Origin: Thermoprotei archaeon
Lineage (GTDB): Archaea; Thermoproteota; Thermoprotei; Thermoproteales; B15-G16
Length of the DNA stretch: 60,908 nucleotides
Direction: 5' to 3'
NCBI GenBank assembly: GCA_003649205.1
Contig: QMRC01000010.1
Coordinates: forward strand, 1-60,908
Of the stretch, positions 7,448-60,873 are shown piece by piece. The stretch's first letter is position 1, and the number at the start of each line of letters is the position of its first letter. A model generated the notes under the pieces. The model worked only from the letters and a program-made list of their open reading frames with translations, made no database searches and was not told where the DNA came from. The translations under genes and the position numbers were made by a program.

Positions 7448-7762
7448 ATGGGTTTGCTGTTGATTAGGAATGAGGATGTTGTGAGGGTTCTCGCTGGTGT
7501 TCCTAGGGGTCATAAGCACCTTAGGTTTGTGTTGTTTTTGAGGGATGGTACCTGTATCGTTCTTCATGAGGCTACTGTTGCTGCTCTCGTGAGGGCTTAC
7601 GTAGATATTGTTACTCATCCCTGTAGGAGGGGTGTTGAGCTTTGTCAGGTTAGGTTGGGTAGGGGTTTGAGGAAGGAGGGTTTTGCTGAGTTTCAGTTGG
7701 TTGAGAGTGGTCGTTGTGAGGAGGAGGTTGTTGATGAGCTCACCAGGGTTATCTTTGGTTGA
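7448..7762 (+). CDS. Unknown small protein upstream of dph2
   Basis: About 104 residues from an ATG at 7448 (MGLLLIRNEDVVRVL). It looks like a compact alpha/beta protein: hydrophobic strands (LRFVLFLRDGTCIVLHEAT) and an amphipathic C-terminal helix (EEEVVDELTRVIF). I see no catalytic motif. It overlaps the start of dph2 by 29 bases on the same strand, so the two are probably translated from one transcript. Strong G+T skew. Confidence 0.65.
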   Translation: MGLLLIRNEDVVRVLAGVPRGHKHLRFVLFLRDGTCIVLHEATVAALVRAYVDIVTHPCRRGVELCQVRLGRGLRKEGFAEFQLVESGRCEEEVVDELTRVIFG

Positions 7763-8780
7763 GGTTGTTGATGTTCTTAGGGGGTTGGGTGTTTCTCGTG
7801 TTTTGCTTCAGTGTGCTCCTGGTCTTCGTGGTGATGTGCTTGATTCTTGGTGTGGTTTCTTGAGTGAGCGGGGGGTTGATGTTGTGGTTAGTGGTTCTTC
7901 GTGTTGGGGTCCTTGTGATGTTGCTGTTAATGAGTGTAGGTTGTTTGGTTGTGATGCTGTTCTTCATGTTGGTCATTGGTGGTTTGGTTGTGAGGGGGGT
8001 GTTCAGGTTGTTTGGTTTGGTGGTGTTCCCGTTGTCTTTGCTCCTTACTTCTACGATCTCGATGTAGGTGCTTGCTGTGGGGATGTTGTTGAGGTTGTTC
8101 GTGGCCGTGGTTTTAGGAGGGTTCTCGTGTGCTGTACTCAGCAGTACTATCCTCTTGCTAGGTACTTGGTCTCTGTTCTTAGGTCTTGTGGTGTTGATGT
8201 TGTTTGTGATCGTGTTACTTACCTTGGTTGTGAGGTAGTTAATCTTCGTCAGTTTAAGGGCTCTATTGACTGTGTTGTTGCTGTTTCTGGTGGTTACTTT
8301 CTTGGTGTTGGTTTCTTCTGTGTCTTTGATGGTGAGGTTCCTGTTATTCAGTATGATCCTCACTCTAGGAGGTTTCTTGATGTTGGTTCTGTTGCTAGGA
8401 GGTTGATTGGTATTAAGTTGAGTAGGTTGGTGGATTTGCTTTCTCGTGGTTTTGAGAGGGTTGGTGTTGTTGTTTCGAGGAAGTTTGGTCAGTGTAGGTT
8501 TGCTCTAGCGGTTAGGGTTAGGGATTTCCTTAGGTCTAGGTTGCGTGGTGTGAGGGTTGATTTGTTGGTTTTCGATGATGTTCCTCTCGAGGTTCTTGAC
8601 GAGCTACCTTACGATGTGTATGTCAATACTGCTTGTCCTAGGTTGGGTCTCGATGATGTTGATAGGTTGAGGTTTAAGGTCTTGCTGAATCTAGGTGAGG
8701 TTAAGTACTTGATCTCTCGATCTATCTCTGGGTATAGGTTTAGTGATGTCTTTGGGGTTCCTACATGGTTGGTAGGTTGA
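7734..8780 (+). CDS. dph2: Diphthamide biosynthesis radical enzyme Dph2
   Basis: A 348-residue Dph2, the [4Fe-4S] enzyme that moves the 3-amino-3-carboxypropyl group of SAM to a histidine of elongation factor 2, the first step of diphthamide formation. The three cluster cysteines fall where expected: Cys57 in SGSSCWGPCD, Cys166 in TYLGC, and Cys301 in YVNTACPRLGLDD; GGYFLG lies in the second repeat. The ATG at 7734 (MSSPGLSLVEVV) is preferred. It overlaps the previous gene by 29 bases and the next by 16. Very strong G+T skew makes the protein rich in Val, Gly and Cys. Confidence 0.9.
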   Translation: MSSPGLSLVEVVDVLRGLGVSRVLLQCAPGLRGDVLDSWCGFLSERGVDVVVSGSSCWGPCDVAVNECRLFGCDAVLHVGHWWFGCEGGVQVVWFGGVPVVFAPYFYDLDVGACCGDVVEVVRGRGFRRVLVCCTQQYYPLARYLVSVLRSCGVDVVCDRVTYLGCEVVNLRQFKGSIDCVVAVSGGYFLGVGFFCVFDGEVPVIQYDPHSRRFLDVGSVARRLIGIKLSRLVDLLSRGFERVGVVVSRKFGQCRFALAVRVRDFLRSRLRGVRVDLLVFDDVPLEVLDELPYDVYVNTACPRLGLDDVDRLRFKVLLNLGEVKYLISRSISGYRFSDVFGVPTWLVG

Positions 8781-24201: not shown

Positions 24202-24621
24202 ATGGATAGTCCTAGAGTTAAATTCAGTGTGATTGGTGTTACTCTAGCATCCGTAGGTATTGCTCTCGTGATATTGTGCTCTCTCTGCTGTATGGGTATT
24301 GCTTTGCTAGCTATGAGAGAGGCTCTCACGATGAAGAAGGTAGGTGTACCGACATTCATAGTCATGGCGTTAGATGCCAAGCTCTTAGCTGTTTTAGGTG
24401 TATTCACGTTGTTTCTCGGTATTGCAGCTCTCACTGCTATGCTAATGCACTATAGGTATCCGAGTGAGACAACGAGCCCAGGTCTAGCAATTCTACTGTG
24501 TTCCTTAGTGGCGTTAGCTCTATTCATGATACCTCTTGCATCGGGTCTCTACGTGTTCATAATTGGTGTCGTTGGGGCTATTCTCAGTGCTGCAGGTGGA
24601 TTAGTTATAATGACTTCGTAG
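24202..24621 (+). CDS. Four-helix membrane protein, unknown
   Basis: A 139-residue integral membrane protein with four hydrophobic segments (roughly 9-36, 55-80, 93-110 and 113-137) and almost no soluble part. No motif is recognised. It lies 64 bases upstream of the membrane-anchored JAMM gene on the same strand, so it may belong to the same unit. That link is inferred from position only. Confidence 0.65.
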   Translation: MDSPRVKFSVIGVTLASVGIALVILCSLCCMGIALLAMREALTMKKVGVPTFIVMALDAKLLAVLGVFTLFLGIAALTAMLMHYRYPSETTSPGLAILLCSLVALALFMIPLASGLYVFIIGVVGAILSAAGGLVIMTS

Positions 24622-24685
24622 CTATCCACTGAAGTCCGTGAAGGTTAGGTATTTAGTACATGGTGAGGTCACTAGGTCTGTATAG

Positions 24686-26473
24686 GTGGATTTCATGAGT
24701 TACGGAAGCTATGCCCTTCCTAAGATCTTGCTATCTAGGGGAGCCTTTAGGAAGGTATGTAAGCACGTGTACTCCGTTTTTGATAAGGAGGTTATTGGTC
24801 TTTTAATTGGTGAGATAGTTTATGAGGATACTCAACCAGTGGTTGTTATTTGGGATGCTATACCGGGTGAGGCGGAAGCTTCTGAAATTCACGTTAGCTT
24901 GAGACCTGAGTTCTTGGCAAAAGTCATGAACGATATCTTAACTGGTAAGATTAGTGGTCGAATCGTTGGTTGGTACCACTCTCATCTCGGTGTTGGTGTC
25001 TTCCTTAGTGAAGTAGATGCGAGGACCCAGTCAATGCTACAGCAATTTTCTCAGAATGTAGTTGCTCTCGTTGTTGATGTTATTCAGAAGAAAGCTGGTT
25101 TCTTCATTCTAAGGAATGGTCAGCCCATTAAAATTCCTAGAGAAAACATTCAGATGATCTCCAATGAGGAGATGACTAAACTTAAGCAGCAGATAGTAAC
25201 TAAGTGCTCGCAGACAATACTTGGGGGGAAGTCCATTCGAGTATCGATTGTACCTAGGAAGAGAATTATCTTCAGGAGGAAAAGGTCTAGTGCTCTATTG
25301 TTCGTAGCAACTATATGCATCGTCACTATAGTACTTCTAGCTACATTACTTGTCATGTATCGAGGTATACATTATCGAGGTGTAAGTAGGGAAGCTGCTA
25401 CATTAAGGGATTTGGTACGTAGTTACAACACTACTCTCTTCAAAATAGCAGAGAGTATAGGATGTGGGGGTAGGGAAGTTGAACTATCATCTCTACTCGC
25501 TCTCATGGTTAAGTACGGTGAGATGAACATCAGTAGTACTCAAGCTAACTTACTTACCTCTACTTGGCCTCTCTCACTTTTCATACTAAATGCGACAGGT
25601 AGTGTCGAAAAAACCTGTACCACCTTACATAGGCTAGATAAGGTCATGAACATTTCCTCGCTAAGTTCTACCCAAAGATACTTACTTCTTCACACACTCT
25701 ACTTACTGAGCGAGAAACTGGATGGTAATCTAAGCAAGGCTGTTGACGTACTTATCAAGCTTTACAGAGCTATCGAGGAATGTGGTGGTGATCTAGCTAC
25801 TACTCACTCGTTAATTGAGTACGTTAGCTCATCTACTCTAGATGCCATATGGGAGGTACGAGATGATGAGAAGTTGGTTAGTAAGGTGTGTCTTCTACTT
25901 AAGCTTCAAGAGGTAAATCCAAAGCTACTGAGTTATGATGTTATTGAGTTGACTCTCTGGTTGAGAAATTTAGAGGGTTTAGGTATTGGGTGGATTACAT
26001 TAGCTAGAATTAACATGTCGAATATTGAGGATTTAGGAGCTTTCCCTCTTAACTTAACGCTTTTTGTAAATGGTTCTTCGAGGGGAAGTGTGGTGATTTC
26101 GCTAGAGAATCTAGTGAATGTACTGGAGCTACTTCATCTGAAGTATGGTGATTTGGTGTCGATGGGAAATAGCTTAGTCATAACATCGTCGAGAGGTGTT
26201 AGGTCTATTAAGCTTCTCGTGAATGAGCCTAAGAGTGCTGTGGTAATCCTCAAGATTGGGACTCACATGATCAAGTTAGGTACTGGTAGGAGTTTTAACA
26301 TATGTATTGTACTCAATCCTCCACTACCTAAGGAACTTATTGAGAAGCTCCTGTTTGGTGAAGGTCTTTTAAAGGTCACTATTAATGGTAGGGAGGTATC
26401 GCTAAGGTTTAGTAGTGAGCAGACTAGTCTTAAGGAAGGAATCCTAGTATACACAGTTCGTAGTGCTCAGTGA
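24686..26473 (+). CDS. Membrane-anchored Rpn11-like JAMM protease
   Basis: A 595-residue protein in three parts. Residues 10-150 form a JAMM/MPN+ domain with all zinc-site and catalytic residues: Glu35 (KEVIGLLIGE), His98 and His100 (GWYHSH), Ser108 and Asp111 (H-x-H-x7-S-x2-D). The segment GWYHSHLGVGVFLSEVDARTQ resembles the proteasomal deubiquitinase Rpn11. After a basic stretch (RKRIIFRRKR) one transmembrane helix runs from about 202 to 224. The remaining 370 residues have eight N-x-S/T sequons, suggesting an outside, glycosylated domain. A GTG at 24686 and an ATG at 24695 are both possible starts. I infer that it removes or matures the ubiquitin-like modifier of the nearby E1/E2. Confidence 0.88.
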   Translation: MDFMSYGSYALPKILLSRGAFRKVCKHVYSVFDKEVIGLLIGEIVYEDTQPVVVIWDAIPGEAEASEIHVSLRPEFLAKVMNDILTGKISGRIVGWYHSHLGVGVFLSEVDARTQSMLQQFSQNVVALVVDVIQKKAGFFILRNGQPIKIPRENIQMISNEEMTKLKQQIVTKCSQTILGGKSIRVSIVPRKRIIFRRKRSSALLFVATICIVTIVLLATLLVMYRGIHYRGVSREAATLRDLVRSYNTTLFKIAESIGCGGREVELSSLLALMVKYGEMNISSTQANLLTSTWPLSLFILNATGSVEKTCTTLHRLDKVMNISSLSSTQRYLLLHTLYLLSEKLDGNLSKAVDVLIKLYRAIEECGGDLATTHSLIEYVSSSTLDAIWEVRDDEKLVSKVCLLLKLQEVNPKLLSYDVIELTLWLRNLEGLGIGWITLARINMSNIEDLGAFPLNLTLFVNGSSRGSVVISLENLVNVLELLHLKYGDLVSMGNSLVITSSRGVRSIKLLVNEPKSAVVILKIGTHMIKLGTGRSFNICIVLNPPLPKELIEKLLFGEGLLKVTINGREVSLRFSSEQTSLKEGILVYTVRSAQ

Positions 26474-26487
26474 TGTAAGTCAGGGAA

Positions 26488-26498
26488 AGTTAAATAAA
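26488..26498 (+). promoter_or_regulatory. TATA box of the zinc-finger gene
   Basis: AGTTAAATAAA, about 50-58 bases before the ATG at 26547, with room for initiation near 26520. It suggests the zinc-finger gene can be transcribed separately from the JAMM gene. Confidence 0.5.
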
Positions 26499-26546
26499 CT
26501 ACCTTCGTAAGTTCCAATTGTCAGCACGTGTTACTTGGGTGTGAAA

Positions 26547-27005
26547 ATGGTTAAAATTTGTCCAAAGTGTGGTAAGGAAAATCCGGACGAAGCATCATAT
26601 TGCTTGCACTGTGGTGCACAGTTAGGTGCTGCACCATCAGCACCTGTAGCGAAGCCACCACCTACTGTTACCGTGACGAAGCCACCTGTAACTGCTAAGC
26701 CAGTACCTACAGCACCGGCAGTCACAGCACCTAGACTACCAACAGTAACATCAACTATAATAAGACCACCAGGGATGTGCTTCTACCATCCACAGATACC
26801 TGCTAAGTACATCTGTAGCAGATGTGGAAGACCAATCTGCGAAAACTGCGCAACGGAAATTGGAGGACTGATCCTATGTCCTCAGTGCGCAGCAGGTATA
26901 GCACCTATTAGAGGAAGAAGCTATTGGTGGATAGCGGTAATTGTTGGTGTTGCTATTGCCGCAGCCATAGCCTTCGTAATACTGTTCTTCCCAACAGTAC
27001 CCTAA
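26547..27005 (+). CDS. Tail-anchored protein with zinc ribbon and B-box/RING-like zinc fold
   Basis: A 152-residue protein. Residues 1-25 form a zinc ribbon (CPKCGKENPDEASYCLHCG). A Pro/Thr/Val/Ala-rich linker of about 50 residues follows. The next segment has C-x2-H (CFYH), CSRC, CENC and CPQC, eight ligands that could fold around two zinc ions like a B-box or binuclear treble clef. The C-terminal 25 residues are a single transmembrane helix. This is the layout of a membrane-tethered adaptor. In this locus a role as an E3-like or target-selecting factor is possible, but this is inference. ATG at 26547 is preferred; TTG and GTG codons lie just upstream. Confidence 0.75.
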   Translation: MVKICPKCGKENPDEASYCLHCGAQLGAAPSAPVAKPPPTVTVTKPPVTAKPVPTAPAVTAPRLPTVTSTIIRPPGMCFYHPQIPAKYICSRCGRPICENCATEIGGLILCPQCAAGIAPIRGRSYWWIAVIVGVAIAAAIAFVILFFPTVP

Positions 27006-27020
27006 GCTTGTCGGAGAAAG

Positions 27021-28274
27021 TTAATCTCCCTTTTCTTCCCTACTCTCCAGTCTATGCACTAAAGAGCTCATCTCTAGCAGACTCATTGTGAACTTCTCAA
27101 GTGTGTTCAATAGCTCTTCTGCCTTTTTACATACTTCAATGACTATCCTACGTACTTCTTCATTTAGGTCGGTGGTAATGTTGAGAGAGTCTTCAATGCA
27201 CGTTCTCAATTTATTGATTAGGGCTGTAGTCTCTGTTCTACACCTCTCTGCACTTAGCACCGTAATCTCTAGCGAAGTAGTTTCCTCCTTAAGTTGCTTA
27301 AGATATTTCTCAAGCTCTTCCCTCCTAGCTAGTAATGTAGCTAGCTCGTTCTGGAGCTCAGGTCTCTCTTCAATCAGTATTCTAGCACGTAACAGCTCAA
27401 TCTCATCATCTAATCTCCTAATCTCCTCCTCAATGCTCTCAATCTTCGCCTTAACATTGCTAGGTATCGGTACGCTACCTACCTCACCAGGTACAAGGTC
27501 TATCTTCAACTTCGTTAAAGGAATTGACAAACCTAGCTTAGTTAATGCATCTGCTACTAAGGTATTCAACTTAGAAATATCGCTTAATATCTCTCTCTTC
27601 TTGGCTACATACTCCTCGACCTCCACATCACCTATCTCAAGCTTGGTCTCTAAGACCTCTAGGTCTTCCACCTTACCTTTCAGAAGTTCTTCGAATTGCT
27701 TAGCTACTTCCACTAGCAACATCGTAGCTAGTGAACAACATGTTGTGAGACTACTTAACTTAGCCAAGTACTCACTACTTAATCTCTTATAAGCTGTTTC
27801 GCTAACTCTACCTTCTTTCCTGAAGTTACTCAATTTCTTTAGCTTTGTGACTAGTGAATGTAGGTCGATGAAGATAGAGCTTATGTAGTTCTCAATTGTT
27901 TTGCTCAGTACGTTGAGTAGTGTTGTTTGATGTAGTTTCTTCACTAGATCAATTAGTCTTCTCTTCTTTCCTTCGTACTCATTAGTGCTAATTTCTCCCA
28001 GTAGCTGCTTTGCGGTTAACTCAGCATACTTACTGAGTACTATGTCCTCAAGTTCTCTAGACTTGGTAGTGGGTAGTCTATCTATGTCTATGAGGTCTTC
28101 TAGGTACAGATCAATTAATGCGGCTAATACATTGTAGGTGGATGCTATTCCTAGTTCCCGACTTAAAGTGCCTAGTTCTAGGTGGAGTGTGGTATTTCCT
28201 GTTTCTCGATATTTCTTGAGTAGTACATCTATGAGCTTCTGCTTTAGCTCCTTATCCTGTACATTACTTGTCAT
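27021..28274 (-). CDS. Coiled-coil protein downstream of Ubl-E1, unknown
   Basis: A 417-residue, nearly all-helical protein. Residues 10-65 look like a winged-helix domain (LGTLSRELGIASTYNVLAALIDLYLEDLIDID). Three copies of a short motif follow, G-x-(I/V)-x4-Y then basic residues, at Gly93-Tyr100, Gly155-Tyr162 and Gly215-Tyr222, resembling SHOCT-like helices. Residues 280-345 form a heptad coiled coil (IESIEEEIRRLDDEIELLRARI). It lies 22 bases after the E1 gene, so it belongs to the E2-E1 operon. Its function is unknown; a scaffold or a substrate of conjugation are possibilities. Confidence 0.75.
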   Translation of the reverse strand: MTSNVQDKELKQKLIDVLLKKYRETGNTTLHLELGTLSRELGIASTYNVLAALIDLYLEDLIDIDRLPTTKSRELEDIVLSKYAELTAKQLLGEISTNEYEGKKRRLIDLVKKLHQTTLLNVLSKTIENYISSIFIDLHSLVTKLKKLSNFRKEGRVSETAYKRLSSEYLAKLSSLTTCCSLATMLLVEVAKQFEELLKGKVEDLEVLETKLEIGDVEVEEYVAKKREILSDISKLNTLVADALTKLGLSIPLTKLKIDLVPGEVGSVPIPSNVKAKIESIEEEIRRLDDEIELLRARILIEERPELQNELATLLARREELEKYLKQLKEETTSLEITVLSAERCRTETTALINKLRTCIEDSLNITTDLNEEVRRIVIEVCKKAEELLNTLEKFTMSLLEMSSLVHRLESREEKGD

Positions 28275-28296
28275 TGTTCTTTCTTCTCCGTAGGAG

Positions 28297-29562
28297 TTAC
28301 TTAATTCTAATCAAGACCTCACGTATGTTGTCTCTGACTTCGTCACGAAATAGTACCTGTAATATCGTACCTTGGGTGTTTGGTATCTCTTTACCTAAGT
28401 CTATGGGTACTACCCCTTCACTAGTTAGCTCATGTATGTACAATCTCTCCCTATCAATTTTGGTACTCAATCTATCTTCAATCATTCGTACTAGTGTGTC
28501 TATGTCTGTGACTTTATTTGGCTCAATATCGATTACCGGTACTTTCTCTTTAACGATACCTTCGTAACCACATACAACACATCTCGTATTTCTTGCTATG
28601 TTTAGCACTGTGTAGCGATTGTTATCTAGGTCAATTAGCAGTACACCTCTAAGTGGTTTGCCTGCATCCTTAGGCCATGTACCTTTTTCCCTGTACTCTC
28701 TGTAGCCGAGAACTAGCTTAATGACCTCTTGTGCCTCTATGGCAGCTACTACGGAGGTTGTAGTCGGTAGTGATGGCATCTTCACCTCCTCTATTGGTGG
28801 TGCACATGGATTACTTAGTTGAATAGCTTCACTGTACTTCTCGGGTGCTATAGTACATGCGAGACATGGTGTTTCAAATGGTAGGACGACCTGTACTCTA
28901 CCCTGGGGACCGTACATACCTCCATCAACTAGTGGTATGTCATATTTTAGTGAGATCGTTGAGAGGTATACTCTAGCTGCTACATTGTCTAGACCTGACA
29001 CAACTACGTCGTGCTCAAGTAGTTTCCTCAGTGGTATCTTCTCTACGAAGTCACATATGTAGTTGAAGTTCGTCCAAGGGAATAGTTTCTTTGCTCTCTC
29101 TGCTAGGGCCTTGGCCTTTAATGCACCTAGATCTGTCTTCTTGAAGAAAATCATTCTGTTTAGGTTTGAGTACTCGACAGTGTCGAAGTCAACTATGGTT
29201 ATGGAGCCAATACCTAGCTGAGCTAAGTTCTTAACTAGTTCATTCCCTAGAGCACCTGCACCTACGATGAGTACCTTTGCTCTTCTTAACTTCTTCTGAT
29301 TTTCAGTACCCCACAGGATTAGTTGCCTTGCCCAGAGGTAATCAACTACTATCCTAACGCTATCTCTAATGTTCTTCTGTTCAAGTACTTCGCGCAAGGT
29401 CTTGTCCTCAGGTAGTAGCTCACCCTCGAGGAGAAGCTTCGTCAATTCAGGTTCAATACCTAAGTCTCTACATATTCTCTTCTTCAGTGTCTTGATCTTT
29501 ATTCCTGGATTTACTTTGATTTGGCTTTTCGTGACGTTAGGTATCTCGACAATGATCCTCAT
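28297..29562 (-). CDS. E1-like (ThiF/UBA) enzyme with N-terminal ubiquitin-like domain
   Basis: A 421-residue protein. Residues 1-74 are a ubiquitin-like beta-grasp (LLLEGELLPEDKTLREVL, then VRIVVDY) without a C-terminal Gly-Gly. Residues 90-320 are the adenylating E1 fold: GAGALGNE (101-108), VDFDTVEYSNLNR with Asp127 and Arg136, and SGLDNVAAR. Two Cys pairs (233/236 and 328/331) probably bind zinc, and Cys253 (SNPCAPP) is a candidate catalytic cysteine. The last 80 residues alternate strands and helices and may be a second beta-grasp, like the E1 ubiquitin-fold domain. It starts 5 bases after the E2 gene. Activation of a ubiquitin-like modifier is the likely role. MoeB/ThiF-type sulfur transfer is less likely, given the E2 next to it. 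Confidence 0.9.
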   Translation of the reverse strand: MRIIVEIPNVTKSQIKVNPGIKIKTLKKRICRDLGIEPELTKLLLEGELLPEDKTLREVLEQKNIRDSVRIVVDYLWARQLILWGTENQKKLRRAKVLIVGAGALGNELVKNLAQLGIGSITIVDFDTVEYSNLNRMIFFKKTDLGALKAKALAERAKKLFPWTNFNYICDFVEKIPLRKLLEHDVVVSGLDNVAARVYLSTISLKYDIPLVDGGMYGPQGRVQVVLPFETPCLACTIAPEKYSEAIQLSNPCAPPIEEVKMPSLPTTTSVVAAIEAQEVIKLVLGYREYREKGTWPKDAGKPLRGVLLIDLDNNRYTVLNIARNTRCVVCGYEGIVKEKVPVIDIEPNKVTDIDTLVRMIEDRLSTKIDRERLYIHELTSEGVVPIDLGKEIPNTQGTILQVLFRDEVRDNIREVLIRIK

Positions 29563-29567
29563 GATCT

Positions 29568-30443
29568 CTATTGTTGCTGTGTCTTCTTATCCCATCTCAA
29601 GACCCTAACTCTAATACCTAGATCTTCAGGTCTCTCCATTACTTCCAGCTCTATTATGTCCTTTATCTCTTCCTCCTTAACTACCTTCCTCTTCCTTGGG
29701 AATCCATACTTGAGGCATATCTCTGCTGCTCTCCTGCATCTTGGGTGATCGAAGATGTCTAGTGGGTTAGGGTCAGCTAGTAGGTGGTACAGTGCATTTA
29801 TCACGGTTGTTAATCTGAAGTATGGTCTCCAACCATCACCCAGTATTGAATGGCATACACCGCCTGGTACGTTTGGAACTATATTTGGGTGATCTATCTC
29901 TGTTAACCATGTAACTACTGGTGGTGCGAAGGGGTACTCTGGTTCCTGTGGGTACTTCTTCCTGAGGTGTGGGTACTTCTTGTATGTTTCCTTGGTTGGT
30001 AACTCTATTAGGAATTTGTGCCACTGTACGTACTGTGTGAATGGCCATACTCCTCTATTAGCTAGCTCAACTATGTCCTTGTCCTCACATCTAATCAATC
30101 CCTCATACATTGTTGGTGGGTAGTTCAGTGCTTTAACTAGTGGAAATTGTCTCCTAACTAGCTCATACTCCTCAAGTAATCTCGCTACGTCAATACCACC
30201 TATGAGGTATGTTGGCATGAGTGCTAGTCTAGCGTATTCTGGTATTGCTAATTGAGCTACAGTTAATCCTTCATTTAGTATTGTTCCTCCGTAGACGAGT
30301 ACTACGGTATTTGGGTCTATACCCAGTTGCTGACAGACTACTGCTTTGATCTCACCTATTGTATGTTCTGGAAGGACATCGACTTCAACCAGACCAGAAG
30401 CTTCACCTATTGGGATCTCTATAAATAGCTTCATACCACACAC
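29568..30443 (-). CDS. Ubl-E2 fusion with Gly-Gly at the junction
   Basis: A 291-residue protein. Residues 4-78 form a ubiquitin-like beta-grasp (VVLVYGGTILNEGLTVAQL aligns with the ubiquitin LIFAGKQLEDGRTL region). It ends LALMPTYLIGG, with Gly82-Gly83 at the place of the ubiquitin C-terminus. Residues 86-245 are an E2/UBC fold: HPN at 185-187, catalytic Cys197 in GGVCHSIL, then GDGWRP and LLADPNPLD. The C-terminus has a short charged extension. The GG leaves open that the Ubl is cut off and becomes the conjugated modifier, or that it is a fixed domain. ATG at 30443 or 30434. First gene of an E2-E1-coiled-coil operon. Confidence 0.9.
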   Translation of the reverse strand: MCGMKLFIEIPIGEASGLVEVDVLPEHTIGEIKAVVCQQLGIDPNTVVLVYGGTILNEGLTVAQLAIPEYARLALMPTYLIGGIDVARLLEEYELVRRQFPLVKALNYPPTMYEGLIRCEDKDIVELANRGVWPFTQYVQWHKFLIELPTKETYKKYPHLRKKYPQEPEYPFAPPVVTWLTEIDHPNIVPNVPGGVCHSILGDGWRPYFRLTTVINALYHLLADPNPLDIFDHPRCRRAAEICLKYGFPRKRKVVKEEEIKDIIELEVMERPEDLGIRVRVLRWDKKTQQQ

Positions 30444-30484
30444 CTATGGTGAAGCAGCTTCCCACTACTCTCTGTACTAAGGTC

Positions 30485-30492
30485 TATATAAA
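30485..30492 (-). promoter_or_regulatory. TATA box of the Ubl-E2/Ubl-E1 operon
   Basis: TTTATATA on the minus strand, 42-50 bases before the first ATG. Initiation near 30463 would leave a leader of about 20-30 bases. No operator-like repeat was noticed. Confidence 0.6.
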
Positions 30493-30499
30493 TTCTATG

Positions 30500-31489: not shown

Positions 31490-31822
31490 CTAGATCTTTG
31501 CTCTTAATTTTCCCAATCTAATCAACTTCCTAATTATTTCCTTCAGTTGCTCCTCTGTTATACCGAATTCGTAAGCTGTTCTCGATATGGAGATTCTACC
31601 TCTATGCGCAACTATGTACCTGTAGATCTTCAGCTCTAAGTCACTTAACTCCTCCTCAACTTGAGGCTTAGGTATCTCACTCCCTTCAACTCTTGAAAGT
31701 AACTTACTGAGTAGCCTAATCACAATACCTTTCTCTCTACCCCCTGCGTATGTGCTCAAGAGCTTAGGTCTTAGATGAATCACTACGAAATCTCCTTCAC
31801 TCACTACATCTGTACTCATCAT
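31490..31822 (-). CDS. Small winged-helix protein
   Basis: A 110-residue protein. The C-terminal half is a clear winged helix (LSDLELKIYRYIVAHRGRISISRTAYEFGITEEQLKEIIRKLIRLGKL). The N-terminal half (FVVIHLRPKLLSTYAGGREKGIVIRLLSKLL) is unassigned. It is probably a DNA-binding regulator. It lies just upstream of the decayed gene on the same strand and is divergent from the THUMP methyltransferase. No target can be named. Confidence 0.65.
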   Translation of the reverse strand: MMSTDVVSEGDFVVIHLRPKLLSTYAGGREKGIVIRLLSKLLSRVEGSEIPKPQVEEELSDLELKIYRYIVAHRGRISISRTAYEFGITEEQLKEIIRKLIRLGKLRAKI

Positions 31823-33010: not shown

Positions 33011-34012
33011 CTACTCCTTCTCCCAGAGCTTATAGATTTCATCGCGAATGTACTCATTCACTTCCTCCACTACACCAGTAACTCGATGAACCTTGACTCC
33101 ACAACCTTCTCTAGCAACACCTATTACCGTAGCACCCACACCTACTTCCTTCAATGCTGTAAGTGCTCTATCGAGGTTTTCTGGTGGTACAGCAGCTAGG
33201 AGAACACCGGAGCTAATTAGCTTTAGAGGATCTAAACCCAGTACCTGACATACCACCCTCGTTTCCTCTCGAATGGGTACTCTCTCTTCCCATACCTCGA
33301 TGAGTACTCTAGATGAGTACGCCATCTCAGCTAAACCACATAGGATACCACCTTCGGTAGGATCATGCATTGAATGTACTCCTACCTTAGCTAGCGTGAG
33401 TGCCTCCTTAACGACGCTGATTTCCCTAATGAATTGCCTTGCCCTCTCAATCACTACCTTCGACACTCCTCTACTTAGCAGTGTTTCCTCGAAGTCTGTA
33501 GCTAGAATTGATGTACCTTCAAGAGCTACTGCTTTTGTCATGATTATATAGTCACCAGGCTTAACACCGCTAGTCGTTACGTACCTATCTCTAGGAGCTA
33601 ACCCGATAGCGCTCATCACCACAATTGGTCTAGCGAGATGTGGTGTGTACTCACTATGACCTCCAACGACCATAGCACCCACCTCCTTAGCAGCAGCATC
33701 TATCTGCCTGGTTATCTTGTCCAGTAACTCCTCCGGCGCGTTCTCAGGTAGAAGGATCGTACTCAGTAACCAACGTGGTTTTGCACCACATACTGCAACA
33801 TCGTTACAGGCTATGTGCACAGCTAACCAACCAATATTCTCCTCAGCTGCTGTTATTGGATCTACGTGAACTACCAGCACTACATTATCTCCTAGATCTA
33901 TGATTGCTGAGTCCTCACCGTACGTAGGTCCTACAATAACTGCTGGATCAGCTGCTCCTATTCTCGAAAATACATACTTACGTAGGAGATTTGGTGGTAT
34001 CTTTCCTGACAT
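33011..34012 (-). CDS. AIR-synthase/HypE-like ATP-binding protein
   Basis: A 333-residue member of the PurM/HypE/SelD/ThiL fold. It has the ATP-metal sites DSAIIDLGDNVVLVVHVDPITAAEENIGWLAVHIACNDVAVCGAKPRW, the glycine-rich GGHSEYTP, and HDPTEGGILCGLAEMA near residue 216. It resembles the HypE-related crenarchaeal paralogue, but lacks the C-terminal Cys motif (PRIC) of true HypE. Its substrate is unknown. It overlaps the upstream JAMM gene by 35 bases, so the two are almost certainly co-translated. Confidence 0.82.
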   Translation of the reverse strand: MSGKIPPNLLRKYVFSRIGAADPAVIVGPTYGEDSAIIDLGDNVVLVVHVDPITAAEENIGWLAVHIACNDVAVCGAKPRWLLSTILLPENAPEELLDKITRQIDAAAKEVGAMVVGGHSEYTPHLARPIVVMSAIGLAPRDRYVTTSGVKPGDYIIMTKAVALEGTSILATDFEETLLSRGVSKVVIERARQFIREISVVKEALTLAKVGVHSMHDPTEGGILCGLAEMAYSSRVLIEVWEERVPIREETRVVCQVLGLDPLKLISSGVLLAAVPPENLDRALTALKEVGVGATVIGVAREGCGVKVHRVTGVVEEVNEYIRDEIYKLWEKE

Positions 34013-34541
34013 AACGACATCCTCTAATACCGAACCTACTTAATTGCTTTAGCAGTACGTACTCCAGCTCAAGTAGTCGTCTATACTTACTCTCATCCCG
34101 TCTTCTCAATGCATCTAGTACTTGAGTCTCTAACTCTTGAAGCTTTCTCAGGTACTCAATGACTACATCTGAGCAACTTGGTGAGATCTCTATCACTAGT
34201 ACCTCGTAACCTCTCGGTGATCTAGCTACCGTACACACATAGAGGGGGTATCCTAGGAAGCTAGCTTTCGTAGCTACATCACCTAAGTCAACCGTTGATG
34301 GCGTCCACTTGCTAAGTGGATGCGTGTGAACGTAACCGATGAACCTCATGTAGGGATTACTTGTATCTACGGGAAAGACTCCACCATAGGTTGATAACAC
34401 AAGTGGTTCAGTAACTACGACCTCACCACTTGAATTCAGGTAGAGAGGTGTAACTACTTCACTACCTGTTTCACTCTGTAGCTCAAGTAATTTAGGTGCT
34501 AAGGTTATAGCTATCTTCACCACCTTACTGAATAAATCCAC
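33978..34541 (-). CDS. Second JAMM-domain protein, soluble
   Basis: A 187-residue protein with a complete JAMM signature: candidate Glu28 (GSEVVTPLYL), His72 and His74 in GYVHTHP, Ser82 and Asp85 (H-x-H-x7-S-x2-D). The C-terminal third is a helical coiled coil (EYLRKLQELETQVLDALRRRDESKYRRLLELEYVLLKQL). JAMM enzymes remove ubiquitin-like proteins or act in ThiS/MoaD-type sulfur transfer. It is 3.5 kb from the Ubl-E2 gene and overlaps a HypE/PurM-like gene, so it could serve either process. Confidence 0.8.
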   Translation of the reverse strand: MDLFSKVVKIAITLAPKLLELQSETGSEVVTPLYLNSSGEVVVTEPLVLSTYGGVFPVDTSNPYMRFIGYVHTHPLSKWTPSTVDLGDVATKASFLGYPLYVCTVARSPRGYEVLVIEISPSCSDVVIEYLRKLQELETQVLDALRRRDESKYRRLLELEYVLLKQLSRFGIRGCRYVRKDTTKSPT

Positions 34542-54755: not shown

Positions 54756-54983
54756 GTGGGTAGACAAGGTCTCTTACGTAGATGTGAAGTCTGTGGAGCC
54801 TACACCCTCTCACAAGATAAATGCCCTAAGTGTGGTGGTCCTGTTAGGACACCTCACCCACCTAAGTTCTCACCTGATGATAGGTTCGCGAAGTATAGAC
54901 TAGCTATGAAGCTTACTTCTGGAATCCTCAAGGTAAGTGATGAGGTTAGGGAAAAGATCTTGAAGTCGCTCCTCAAGACTTAG
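54756..54983 (+). CDS. nop10: H/ACA RNP protein Nop10
   Basis: A 75-residue Nop10. The zinc ribbon CEVCGAYTLSQDKCPKCGG and PHPPKFSPDDRFAKYRL are diagnostic. It helps Cbf5 in RNA-guided pseudouridylation. The GTG at 54756 has AGGGGGAG 5-12 bases upstream. It overlaps the convergent aglB gene by 11 bases. Confidence 0.95.
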   Translation: MGRQGLLRRCEVCGAYTLSQDKCPKCGGPVRTPHPPKFSPDDRFAKYRLAMKLTSGILKVSDEVREKILKSLLKT

Positions 54984-57174
54984 GGTACTCTATCCTAAAT
55001 ACCTTGACCCAACCATTTGGTGCTGATACGTACACTAGCTTGAAGTACTTAGGTTGTTCAACAACTACTCTTGGTCCCTGGTAATAAGCTCCAACAGGTG
55101 CCATTGGTTCGAAGATCCATATGAATGATGTACCTGGTGGTTTAGCACCGAAGATTAGCTTGTACAGTGTTGCGTTACGTGCTTCCGTGGTATTTGCTGG
55201 TACAAGTATCCTGAGTATTGTTTCACCGATTCTCAAGGTTGCTGTAGCTAGGTACTTCCTCCTAACTTCCTCATCTGAGAGCCCAGCTATTCTAGCCATC
55301 CAGTAGCTCTTAGCGAAATCGCCTGCATATGGATGTGGCATCTTTATGATACCAGCTGGAACAATATCGATAGCAGGTTCAAACACCACTACATACTGCG
55401 CTCCCAATTCCTTAAATATCTTCACTGCAGTTTCCTCATCACTTATGAATGCTAGTGCTATCCTCCTTATCTGAGTACCATTTATTGTTGAGTTATCCGC
55501 TAGTGAAGTTCTATTGGCAACCACCGAGATCCAGTACCCATAATCCCACCAACTAGCTATAACTGCGTTTTGAGGTAAGTTATTCCTCATCCACTCTAGA
55601 GCTGATAACCAGTCAGCATACTCCATCTTATACCTTGGACTACCTGCTAGCGATGACGATAGTATGAGTGCTGGCGCATCAGCTAACCTCATGGCATTAT
55701 TTACCGAGTAGCATACAGCAGCTGTGAACACAATCACCATCAGCAATAGAACACCTATAGCGTACTCTCTCGGAAATCCATACATCTTCTTCAACTTCCT
55801 CGAGTACCTCACCTGCTCCCTAGTCTTCTGCACAAAGAGTATGAAAAATTCACGTAGTGTGTATACAGCTAGTAGAGGCCATATAGGTGTCATGAGTACT
55901 GTTAACCTAACCATGCTAGCTGCTGAGTAGAGAGATGTTATTGCGTAGAGTATCACGAGGAGAGTTACCTCATCTACTCCTCGATATATCATAAGGGGTA
56001 TAGCAACTATGGCAAATGGTATTAAGTACCCTAGATCGCTGAATATGTTGTACCATGTAGATACCTTGTGCTCACCTACAGACTCAACGAGCGGACTCCT
56101 CTCCTTAGGTATCACGACAGCTAGTATTCTACCAGCTGGGAGCACGAGTATACCAACTATGAGGAGTGCAGTCAGTACTACAATCAGTAGTGGAAGAACG
56201 TACACTATCCTTTTGTACAGTTTCTCGAAGCTAACCTCTACCCTGAACTTAGTTAAGACGATGTATAGTAGGGACAGTACTGTAGCTATATTCGGTAAAG
56301 CAGCTGTTAGAGATCTGAGTGCTGTAATTCCGTATCTAGGCATGGAAACTATCATCGCTGTGAACACTGTATTGCATAGCAGGTACGTTAGAACGACCTT
56401 ATCGACCTTACCTACACGTAGCAGTATAGCGACAATTACGTAGAGTGCAAGTAGGTTCCAGAGGTAGAGGTATGCACCCCAAGTCCAGGCTACAAAGCCA
56501 AAGCAGAGACCACTCAGTAGTGAAAGGAGTAGAGTCCATGACCTCCTCTCTTCTTTAAGTGCCTGTACGAAGAGGTACAGCCCCCAGACTATAAATGGCA
56601 TTGCAATTGCTTCATCATCGAACCAACCAGCTACTGATCTGCTCACGTATGCTGGACAGAAGGTAACGAGTAGTGCAGTGAGTAATCCACCGAATCTACC
56701 GCAGATAGCTTGACCTAGTAGGTATGCACCTATAACTGTGAAAATCGACATTACTGCAGGGGTTATAACAGCTACTTCCTTGAGCGTAAGGCCAAGTAGT
56801 GGACCAAGTAGCCTATGTAGTACCACACCCATTAGGGAGACTCCAGGAACAAATGACTTCCTGATGTCAATACCGTAAGGGTACCAGAACTTCGTATCTA
56901 AGATCTTATCGTGCTCGAACCACCATGAGAACCACCATGAAAATCCTCTTCTCTCAATCTGTTCAGCTACGTAGTACCTCATGAAGGGGTCGAACTCATT
57001 CAAGTAGTATCCCCACTTCACTACTGGTATTAACCTTAGGTACAGAGATATAGCACATATTGCAGTGAGCGTAAGTACGGTGATTACGTGCTTAAGGTCA
57101 ATGAACTCACTTAACTTGCTTAGCTTGTACAAGACACTTGGTCTCTTGACTCGACTACTCACAATAATCACCAA
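54973..57174 (-). CDS. aglB: Oligosaccharyltransferase AglB (STT3)
   Basis: A 733-residue membrane oligosaccharyltransferase, which moves a lipid-linked glycan to Asn in N-x-S/T on the outer face. After an N-terminal transmembrane helix comes the catalytic EFDP region (NEFDPFMRYYVAEQ); about a dozen transmembrane helices follow; the WWDYG motif lies near residue 540 (ASWWDYGYW). The C-terminal domain is globular. This enzyme would modify the sequon-rich ectodomain of the JAMM protein at 24.7 kb. Confidence 0.95.
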   Translation of the reverse strand: MVIIVSSRVKRPSVLYKLSKLSEFIDLKHVITVLTLTAICAISLYLRLIPVVKWGYYLNEFDPFMRYYVAEQIERRGFSWWFSWWFEHDKILDTKFWYPYGIDIRKSFVPGVSLMGVVLHRLLGPLLGLTLKEVAVITPAVMSIFTVIGAYLLGQAICGRFGGLLTALLVTFCPAYVSRSVAGWFDDEAIAMPFIVWGLYLFVQALKEERRSWTLLLSLLSGLCFGFVAWTWGAYLYLWNLLALYVIVAILLRVGKVDKVVLTYLLCNTVFTAMIVSMPRYGITALRSLTAALPNIATVLSLLYIVLTKFRVEVSFEKLYKRIVYVLPLLIVVLTALLIVGILVLPAGRILAVVIPKERSPLVESVGEHKVSTWYNIFSDLGYLIPFAIVAIPLMIYRGVDEVTLLVILYAITSLYSAASMVRLTVLMTPIWPLLAVYTLREFFILFVQKTREQVRYSRKLKKMYGFPREYAIGVLLLMVIVFTAAVCYSVNNAMRLADAPALILSSSLAGSPRYKMEYADWLSALEWMRNNLPQNAVIASWWDYGYWISVVANRTSLADNSTINGTQIRRIALAFISDEETAVKIFKELGAQYVVVFEPAIDIVPAGIIKMPHPYAGDFAKSYWMARIAGLSDEEVRRKYLATATLRIGETILRILVPANTTEARNATLYKLIFGAKPPGTSFIWIFEPMAPVGAYYQGPRVVVEQPKYFKLVYVSAPNGWVKVFRIEYPKS

Positions 57175-60123: not shown

Positions 60124-60873
60124 TTATTTCTCGAATGTAAGTAGTTCCCTCGTCACATACCTTCTACACAGCGCTATCTCGAGAGCATCGTAGATGTCTG
60201 ATGGTAATTTCAAACCGAAATACTCAATAGGGAGAACCCTCCACACTTCACGTTCTGAAACCAAGATCAAGTACACGAGACAGCTACAGCACCTAAATAC
60301 CTCGCTAACACATCTCCTAAACCTCTCCAATAACTCAGAAACAGGACTCGAAGGTACAGAACCAACCTTAATCTCCACAACACTACACGAACTACACAAG
60401 ACCTCAGCAACATCACGGAGAATAGAGAGAACACCGTCAAGAGACCTAACAACCCACCACATAGCAGGAACACCATCAATAAGGAGAACAACACCAATTC
60501 TCTTCAACCCAAGGTCAATACCGAGAACAACACGATCAAAGAAAACCCTACCCAAAACCCTACGCACAACCTCACGAACAATGTAGAGAGCTAAGTACCT
60601 ATCAGAGACACAGCACAAATCCTCACGACACACAACAACAGGAACAGAGACATCACGAAGCTCAACATCAGAGACCAAGACATCAACACCAGGTATAGGA
60701 GGTACAGAGTCAAGTACATGAACCTCAAAACAACACCTAGAGAAAACAGTGAGCAACCTCCTCAACAACCTCGGATCACGAACATACACACCAACACGAA
60801 CACGGAAAACACAATCCAACACAGAACCAAAACAGCGAAAACACAAAGAAAAACTTATAGACACAACGACCAA
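60124..60873 (-). CDS. RNase H-fold (RuvC/YqgF-like) protein, unknown
   Basis: A protein of up to 249 residues. The segment VLGIDLGLKRIGVVLLIDG fits strand 1 of the RNase H fold with a catalytic-type Asp; VVEIKVGS may supply a second acid; DIYDALEIALCRRY near the end matches the D-A-x-x-I-A pattern of RuvC-like nucleases. I therefore infer a resolvase or nuclease-like fold. The N-terminus is uncertain: TTG (60819) and GTG (60789) lie inside the frame, and the TATA box of the next tRNA (60854-60859) falls within the first codons. Minus strand very G+T-rich, rich in Cys and Val. Confidence 0.6.
   Translation of the reverse strand: MVVVSISFSLCFRCFGSVLDCVFRVRVGVYVRDPRLLRRLLTVFSRCCFEVHVLDSVPPIPGVDVLVSDVELRDVSVPVVVCREDLCCVSDRYLALYIVREVVRRVLGRVFFDRVVLGIDLGLKRIGVVLLIDGVPAMWWVVRSLDGVLSILRDVAEVLCSSCSVVEIKVGSVPSSPVSELLERFRRCVSEVFRCCSCLVYLILVSEREVWRVLPIEYFGLKLPSDIYDALEIALCRRYVTRELLTFEK

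Follow-up and report, generated by a model that had tools for sequence, protein, structure and literature searches.

The archaeal ubiquitin systems known so far are regarded as soluble precursors of that of eukaryotes. The locus described here, from a Thermoprotei archaeon (B15-G16; assembly GCA_003649205.1), raises the question of where the modifier resides when no separate gene for it accompanies E1, E2 and a JAMM protease, and whether the tagging of proteins might be coupled to the cell membrane. The window, i.e. the whole stretch of DNA analysed, spans 60,908 nt (contig QMRC01000010.1, positions 1-60,908, forward strand). The six-gene set claimed by an earlier note was found with all six ORFs in place; the end there assigned to the locus, 30495, lies past the start of the E2 ORF, which is at 30443. 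The window contig seems to be a genuine part of the genome, since it carries the only full-length SRP54 of the latter, which argues against a misbinned contig. This SRP54 shows 50-52% identity to those of seven order-mates searched and 46% to that of G084, values of 52-53% being also reached outside the order. The host is likely a thermophile, and its lineage looks neither Asgard nor Caldiarchaeum.

The E2 gene (29571..30443, minus strand; 291 aa, GTG start) encodes a protein with Pfam matches to ubiquitin (2.2e-7) and UQ_con (1.1e-13). Residues 84-291 (29571..30194) form a UBC-type E2 domain, where the HPN motif at 185-187 and Cys197 (29853-29855), both previously pointed out, were recognized; H185, P186, N187 and C197 are invariant across 18 aligned sequences. 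Residues 4-83 (30195..30434) form a beta-grasp ubiquitin (Ub) domain, orthologous to the separate 80-aa Ub of relatives and matching it over the full 80 residues, Met4 corresponding to Met1 of free Ub. The domain ends in Leu-Ile-Gly-Gly, and this end coincides, without linker, with the start point of free E2s: all window-type and Thermoplasmata loci compared (11 of 11) show this boundary, residues 3/4-83 being covered by free Ub and those from 84 on by free E2. Since the ubiquitin-like domain (Ubl) of the E2 aligns fully with free Ub, and ends in Gly-Gly where free E2s start, the modifier is, judging from these alignments, not missing, being present as an in-frame part of the Ub-E2 chain. Structure prediction, suggested earlier as a check, was carried out for Ub-E2 and E1. 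The Ub domain matched ubiquitins, with CsUb as top match, tied with other ubiquitins; the E2 part was barely sampled, as nearly all matches listed concern the Ub part and a single E2 chain, 6cp2_B, appears among them. A sequencing error as the cause of the fusion was ruled out, since the fusion is also found on a second contig at 94% identity (P0001) and in five further diverged proteins.

The genome, 93.8% complete, was searched for further modifiers and E1s. PF00240 matched only the two fused domains of the window, and the ThiS family (PF02597; ThiS/MoaD/Urm1-type) gave nothing at E 1; the latter model found matches in 13 of 14 control genomes. The claim that no separate modifier gene is present is borne out by both searches, and the separate Ub gene typical of the Caldiarchaeum-type operon was not seen in this genome; one may possibly have been missed, given the completeness of the assembly. 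No ThiF-family gene was detected besides the window E1.

The E1 gene (28300..29562, minus strand; 421 aa) follows that of the E2 on the same strand, after a gap of 5 bases. Pfam detects in its product both ubiquitin (3.8e-7) and ThiF (1.6e-55), in agreement with the Ubl-E1 first proposed; the protein is composed of a Ubl (1-75), an adenylation domain (78-328) and a C-terminal UFD-like region (about 340-421). The alignment indicates zinc-type cysteines at 233, 236, 328 and 331, as well as Cys253; all of these, together with G101, G103, D125, N133, R136 and K149, are invariant in 28 sequences, and we take the set to include the nucleotide-binding residues and the Cys of an E1. The predicted structure gave MoeB and UBA3 as top matches. 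The N-terminal Ubl is devoid of Gly-Gly; a domain of this kind occurs in 89 of 120 E1 relatives, among the matches listed, and is by sequence a common feature of the E1 family. The notion that E1 and E2 each carry their own Ubl thus holds for the presence of the domains, but not for their roles, that of the E2 being the modifier ortholog and that of the E1 a family feature.

The metal site of JAMM proteases consists of a Glu and the motif H-x-H-x(7)-S-x(2)-D. Both were found in the Rpn11-type JAMM of the locus (24686..26470, plus strand; 595 aa) as Glu35, His98, His100, Ser108 and Asp111; the Pfam match is to JAB (3.8e-13), and the best matches in PDB are CsRpn11 (6.8e-19), then Rpn11. Hydropathy indicates one transmembrane (TM) segment at residues 205-223 (25298-25354), preceded by a Lys/Arg-rich stretch and followed by a predicted ectodomain (residues 224-595, 25355-26470). 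An outside location of the latter is favoured by the position of the sequons, 8 of 8 of which lie after the TM segment (a chance of about 0.02 by length alone); counted against it, two of the seven related JAMMs carry a single sequon ahead of this segment. The membrane-anchored JAMM of the earlier note was recovered, with a JAB domain, a single TM segment and counterparts in related operons. Its companion statement, that other archaeal operons encode soluble proteins throughout, does not hold in general: TM segments were found in 7 of 7 related JAMM ORFs and in one Caldiarchaeum-type JAMM (L018).

The reading that we regard as probable, with some reserve, is that the JAMM cuts Ub-E2 after Gly-Gly and so makes modifier and E2 available for conjugation, driven by E1, on the inner side of the membrane. 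Ub-E2 would be synthesized as one chain, with Ub joined to E2 without linker; the neighbouring JAMM would cut after Gly82-Gly83 (codons 30195..30200), before Ile84, so that Ub and E2 would be set free in equal amounts on the cytoplasmic side, and the freed Ub would be the modifier conjugated via E1. The JAMM domain would lie in the cytoplasm and its ectodomain outside, and a Zn/B-box membrane protein might serve as E3 or adaptor. Ub and E2 would be supplied at a 1:1 ratio fixed by the fusion, and the membrane JAMM would be at once on-switch and off-switch; we infer that the conjugation system acts at the membrane. If this is true, the maturation of the modifier, the supply of E2 and signalling at the membrane can be combined in a single switch.

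Gly82-Gly83 stands at the exact end of the match to free Ub, with the E2 directly after, and its exposure would need a cut. Besides this junction, several observations favour cleavage. The metal site of the JAMM is intact, and all of the window-type fused proteins (7/7) keep an 80-residue Ub without indels, ending in Gly. According to passages of PMC5654768, CsRpn11 cuts Ub free of GFP in a linear Ub-GFP fusion, and E1 does not activate pro-Ub before its cleavage; cutting by CsRpn11 after the Gly-Gly of Ub is described in sections of PMC5654768 and PMC6043591. Counted against cleavage, the JAMM and Ub-E2 genes lie on opposite strands, and 4 of the 7 window-type fused proteins have an Ala-Gly tail, the equivalent of which in CsUb (Gly77Ala) is cut much more slowly by CsRpn11 in the part of PMC6043591 that reports it. 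Moreover, the residues after Gly-Gly are Ile-Asp, versus Cys-Gly in CsUb-pre (same part of PMC6043591). The Ala-Gly relatives represent a natural series for JAMM specificity.

Further support comes from a class of Bathyarchaeota-type loci (L043-L047 and L080-L088; L002, L003, L005 and L006 are, judging from length and ORFs, the same contigs as L080, L081, L084 and L088), where Ub and E2 are separate neighbouring ORFs in 14 of 14 cases, unlike in the window. Orthologous Ub, E2, Ubl-E1 and a short Zn/B-box protein are shared with the window by all 14, and a single-TM JAMM, whose ectodomain gives weak Ig-like matches, by 7; of the remaining loci, 4 lack the JAMM where it would be expected, and 3 lie on contigs that end too soon. 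These operons differ from the window in that the coiled-coil gene was not found at E 0.01, and in that 12 of the 14 encode, on the opposite strand, a protein with Ig repeats, TM, Zn and wHTH. Half of the free Ubs (7) end exactly at Gly-Gly and the other 7 carry 2-8 extra residues; over the 14 loci, tail and JAMM presence show no clean correlation, and one of the 4 loci devoid of the JAMM domain has a 2-residue Ub tail, which counts against cleavage.

A second Ub(VGG)-E2 fusion, also in frame, was found in genus g85 (L039-L042). In each of the four loci it is immediately followed by a JAMM gene, again in favour of cleavage, and in 3 of 4 an E1 ORF was detected nearby. This locus type differs from the window in its very divergent E2, set apart in the E2 tree, in its short JAMM without TM (4/4 tested) and in its E1, which lacks an N-terminal Ubl in the single case looked at (L039). 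The existence of this distant fusion in another genus suggests, at the level of sequence, that the Ub-E2 fusion beside a JAMM arose more than once. A single origin, with the 11 fused E2s held together, was rejected at a p-AU of 0.0197, a value affected by long branches and by the choice of the tested group after the first tree had been seen. Within the seven window-type fusions, the fusion label requires at least 2 changes on a tree of 38 chosen rows. Thermoplasmata E2s fall outside in this tree and beside P0004 in the other; the two trees disagree, a P0002/3/5/6 clade being seen in the first only. A bolder version of the scheme may be put forward only tentatively: Ub-E2 would be the inert chain of a self-limiting system, from which a membrane JAMM with outward ectodomain would release both parts in response to a cell-surface cue, the fusion would have arisen more than once next to JAMM genes, and the JAMM would activate, not merely erase.

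Whether or not the JAMM cuts Ub-E2 makes two quite different machines. Were the Ub domain to stay uncut, it would be a cis regulator of the E2, e.g. by engaging its backside or E1, and some other small undetected modifier, or none, would be conjugated. We consider this unlikely, albeit the best of the alternatives. The Ala-Gly tails are in its favour, as is the divergence of fused Ub, which also counts against cleavage: the Ub/E2 distance ratio is 0.53 for the 54 free-free pairs and rises to 0.83 for the 84 free-fused and 0.99 for the 14 fused-fused ones, the pairs not being independent, so that fused Ub looks, by sequence, less constrained than free Ub. Yet its tail and length are kept, without linker, and 30 of the 80 columns of Ub do not vary over 12 free and 7 fused copies, whereas the Ubl of E1, which is no modifier, has changed much faster than the enzyme core of the same protein (distance ratio 1.55-1.78). 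The E1 itself is of the same family as the E1 adjoining free Ub in relatives. Finally, searches of the genome (93.8% complete) turned up neither a ThiS-type gene, nor an extra PF00240 gene, nor a further ThiF gene, which makes a cis regulator less likely and cleavage likelier.

It is improbable that two products are made, full Ub-E2 and free E2 from an internal start, with Ub as fusion partner or solubility aid only: codon 76 is an in-frame ATG, but Met76 belongs to the Ub core and, being invariant in free Ubs as well (12 free, 7 fused), gives no sign of a selected start. A decaying relic, in which a neutral read-through fusion persists in a lineage where conjugation no longer works, would agree with the lack of the system in 60 relatives and with some relaxation of fused Ub, but is very improbable, as the catalytic-type residues tested in E1, E2 and JAMM are all kept and the fusion recurs in P0001 and, diverged, in five more proteins.

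The proposed search for the same gene set found the system in none of the 60 genomes related to this one; the neighbourhood is conserved in related loci. The Ub-E2 locus is a variant of the archaeal ubiquitin system not met before; neither an archaeal Ub-E2 fusion nor a membrane JAMM in a Ub operon was found in the open-access literature. In eukaryotic UBA52 and UBA80, Ub is N-terminal and is released by deubiquitinases. As in the window, Ub is made there as an in-frame fusion (PMC11354881, in part), the partner being, however, a ribosomal protein and not a conjugating enzyme. In the bacterial operon type of Iyer 2006 (PMC1779556, in part), a single chain likewise holds Ubl and an E2-like fold and is encoded together with E1 and JAB. 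There, a polyUbl is joined in certain species to an E2-like domain described as inactive, while the window E2 keeps HPN and Cys. The Caldiarchaeum subterraneum operon (CsUb, E1, E2, srfp RING E3, CsRpn11) shares Ub, E1, E2 and an Rpn11-type JAMM. In the passages of PMC5654768 that deal with it, CsUb is also a precursor matured by the JAMM, and the UBL of the E1 is placed at the C-terminus, versus the N-terminal Ubl here; in the window, the precursor tail is the E2 itself, and the JAMM has a TM segment and an ectodomain. The Bathyarchaeota-type operon may already have been drawn in the supplements of that paper (Cluster III).

Instead of the RING E3, the window encodes a zinc-ribbon (2e-9) and B-box-like (2.5e-6) membrane protein (26535..27002, plus strand; 156 aa), a candidate E3 or adaptor at the level of a guess. 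Its C-terminal TM segment at 133-151 (26931-26987, by hydropathy) and its counterparts in related operons substantiate the tail-anchored zinc-finger protein initially described. Short counterparts are found in 14 of 14 related loci, with no TM in 12 of 12 tested; long ones have 2-4 TM segments in 10 of 10 tested. No small RING-finger E3 of Caldiarchaeum type was detected: among the 8 proteins scanned none reached a RING cut-off, the Zn protein coming closest at E 0.63-0.73, and the single RING model used on the whole genome, zf-RING_2, stayed below its own (best E 0.28).

The suggested domain search detected ThiF, UQ_con, JAB and ubiquitin (twice), and matched no family for two proteins. One is the putative coiled-coil protein, last gene of the E2-E1 run (27024..28274, minus strand), with no Pfam family over its cut-off and one weak match in 60 other genomes searched; a likeness to g85-locus proteins (BLAST 3e-4 without composition correction, phmmer 0.38) is not claimed. 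The other is a small multi-pass membrane protein upstream of the JAMM (24202..24618, plus strand), without homologs in related loci at E 0.01; instead of the four helices first counted, three hydrophobic segments were seen at the hydropathy threshold used. A 110-aa ORF at 31493-31822 passed Pfam PCI by 0.5 bit; a JAMM-PCI pair, as in the proteasome lid, was discarded, since the long homologs of this ORF in relatives consist of Ig repeats, a TM segment, a Zn ribbon and a winged helix, the last judged from a BLAST match.

All six genes ascribed to the locus by the earlier note are present at the positions claimed. On the minus strand, the E2 gene (29571-30443) gives Pfam matches to ubiquitin at residues 19-74 and to UQ_con at residues 166-233 of its product, and the E1 gene (28300-29562) to ubiquitin at residues 8-59 and to ThiF at 78-328; on the plus strand, the JAMM gene (24686-26470) matches JAB at residues 13-124, and the zinc protein gene (26535-27002) encodes a zinc ribbon and a B-box-like finger. 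In the Pfam scan the coiled-coil and small membrane proteins matched no family above its cut-off. Within the E2 domain, an 18-residue Lys/Tyr-rich insertion (residues 151-168), N-terminal of the HPN motif, is common, among 18 aligned sequences, only to the window E2 and P0001, a 94% identical Ub-E2 protein.

The modifier had been regarded as missing. Indeed, no separate gene was found in the window genome, an assembly 93.8% complete: the PF00240 profile matched the two window domains only, and no member of the ThiS family (MoaD/ThiS/Urm1 type) was detected at E 1 by a profile which gives matches in 13 of 14 control genomes. The ThiF profile, searched against the same assembly, matched the window E1 only. 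However, the simplest reading of these searches, and of alignments with free Ub and E2, is that the N-terminal part of the Ub-E2 protein is itself the modifier. The E2 query, compared with 5.8 billion proteins, produced 105 matches, 6 of them fused (P0001-P0006, 266-296 aa) and 99 E2-only (172-212 aa); the window Gly82-Gly83 end coincides with the start point of the free E2s, GG-Ile-Asp-Val being aligned with Met-Asp-Val or similar. P0003 bears the source label Fervidobacterium sp.; this places a protein of archaeal type in a bacterial bin, probably by misbinning. Among the related genomes, Ub has its own gene directly upstream of the E2 gene, and in all 11 loci tested free Ub aligns to fusion residues 3/4-83 and free E2 to residue 84 onward. 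One class has the system in 14 of 256 genomes, with Ub and E2 as two ORFs in each; since a single in-frame stop codon parts them in 4 of the 14 loci, fusion or splitting would be a short step.

On sequence, the fused Ub may still work as a modifier, if a somewhat relaxed one. In favour of its still being a modifier are the intact length (80 residues, without indels, and 30 invariant columns over 19 copies, from 12 of the 14 free loci and 7 fusions), the last Gly, conserved in all 19, and the lack of a linker between Ub and E2 in the aligned fusions. Against it are the penultimate residue, Ala in 4 of the 7 fused proteins, and the ratio of Ub to E2 distances, which increases from 0.53 in 54 free pairs through 0.83 in 84 mixed pairs to 0.99 in 14 fused ones; the pairs share ancestry and have an E2 distance of at least 0.3. 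CsRpn11, the Caldiarchaeum JAMM protease, is reported to accept Ala at both tail positions, and to cut slowly when it is penultimate (PMC6043591).

The best solved relatives of the window JAMM are CsRpn11 (6.8e-19) and Rpn11, and Glu35, His98, His100, Ser108 and Asp111 are retained. A Lys/Arg-rich stretch precedes its only TM segment (205-223) and 8 of 8 sequons follow it, which argues for a JAMM domain inside the cell and an ectodomain outside. A gene resembling AglB oligosaccharyltransferase was recognised by eye at 54973-57174. All 7 related JAMM ORFs, one cut by a contig end, have one TM segment; in two of them one sequon is N-terminal of it, every other sequon being located after it. Weak, sub-cut-off Ig-like matches were seen in 2 of 4 relatives scanned by Pfam, and Ig- or PKD-type domains on some of 11 protein matches. 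No counterpart of the window ectodomain was detected in relatives, and no JAMM of the window kind was found among 60 relatives of the window genome. Membrane JAMMs are not restricted to the window type, since one adjoining a Caldiarchaeum-type Ub/E2 operon (L018, 321-1121) carries a C-terminal TM segment.

In the mechanism proposed, Ub-E2 would be made as a single chain, and the membrane JAMM would cut after Gly83, each cut releasing one mature Ub and one E2. E1 would charge Ub, presumably via Cys253, and hand it to Cys197 of E2; the zinc/B-box membrane protein may act as E3, the JAMM would also take Ub off again and, more speculatively, the ectodomain could link it to the cell surface. A direct precedent is the reported release of Ub from a linear GFP fusion by CsRpn11, uncut pro-Ub being refractory to E1 (PMC5654768). 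By analogy, the system would work like the Caldiarchaeum cascade, whose separate Ub gene and RING E3 have no counterpart in profile searches of the window genome. No archaeal Ub-E2 fusion was found in searches of open-access literature; the nearest printed fusion found is a bacterial polyUbl joined to an inactive E2-like domain (PMC1779556).

The Ub-E2 fusion probably arose more than once, as far as E2 trees can tell. In genus g85 a second locus encodes a Ub(VGG)-E2 of 272-276 aa, followed immediately by a short JAMM gene in all 4 loci, and these fusions stand apart from the window type in a tree of 28 rows. A constraint joining all 11 fused rows gave a p-AU of 0.0197, with long branches involved and the fused group picked after the first tree. 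Window-type fusions do not form one group, at least 2 changes being required; the two trees disagree in detail. Coiled-coil proteins with G-x-x-S/T/E-x-x-E-Y-like repeats occur near both kinds of fusion (window 27024-28274, minus strand; g85 loci L042 8008-9093, L041 13895-14971, L040 4395-5468 and L039 13639-14679); their weak similarity may reflect composition only.

The E1 Ubl is different from that on E2: it lacks Gly-Gly, and its divergence is 1.55-1.78 times that of its own enzyme core. A precomputed Pfam Ub-type domain is present in 89 of the 120 E1 relatives listed, from 304 found including the window E1, and all 14 separate-gene loci have an E1 of 407-459 aa.

In the relatives, the order is long Zn/B-box protein (2-4 TM segments, in 10 of 14 loci), JAMM-TM-ectodomain, Ub, E2, Ubl-E1, short Zn/B-box protein (14 of 14, without TM in the 12 tested) and, on the opposite strand, an Ig-repeat TM protein (12 of 14). 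The window encodes a single Zn/B-box protein, with TM, besides JAMM, Ub-E2 and Ubl-E1, and two genes without relatives in those loci. Of the 14 loci, 7 have the JAMM, 4 lack it at its usual position, and 3 could not be assessed. At three of the four, its position is occupied by a TM-ectodomain ORF without JAMM domain (L047, 10595-11761; L080 and L081, read as L002, 8676-9953, and L003, 4734-6269), as if the protease were lost while the membrane part stayed. The Ig-repeat ORFs (L043 6025-8022, L045 11721-13733 and ten similar ones; 552-671 aa), convergent with the operon, combine Ig-like repeats, TM, zinc ribbon and winged helix, as checked by Pfam on the L045 ORF and for TM on that of L002; a surface-to-cytoplasm sensor beside the ubiquitin operon is possible.

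The contig appears to belong to its genome. It carries the sole full-length SRP54 copy, 50-52% identical to those of seven order-mates searched and 46% to that of G084, a genome with the separate-gene system; this is support, not proof, because three genomes outside the order (G085, G087, G099) reach 52-53%. The locus is flanked by genes identified by eye as ribosomal and other core genes. Besides the Rpn11-type JAMM, a small JAMM-like protein is encoded at 33978-34541 on the minus strand, with an H-T-H-P...S..D motif and a Prok-JAB match below cut-off (E 0.0034), its gene overlapping the start of one resembling, by eye, an AIR-synthase/HypE relative. Stretches 1-2000, 7683-8780 and 60124-60873 differ from the remaining window in the strong strand skew of their composition (AT skew -0.51 over the first 2 kb) and in ORFs that look, by eye, rich in Val, Cys and Arg.
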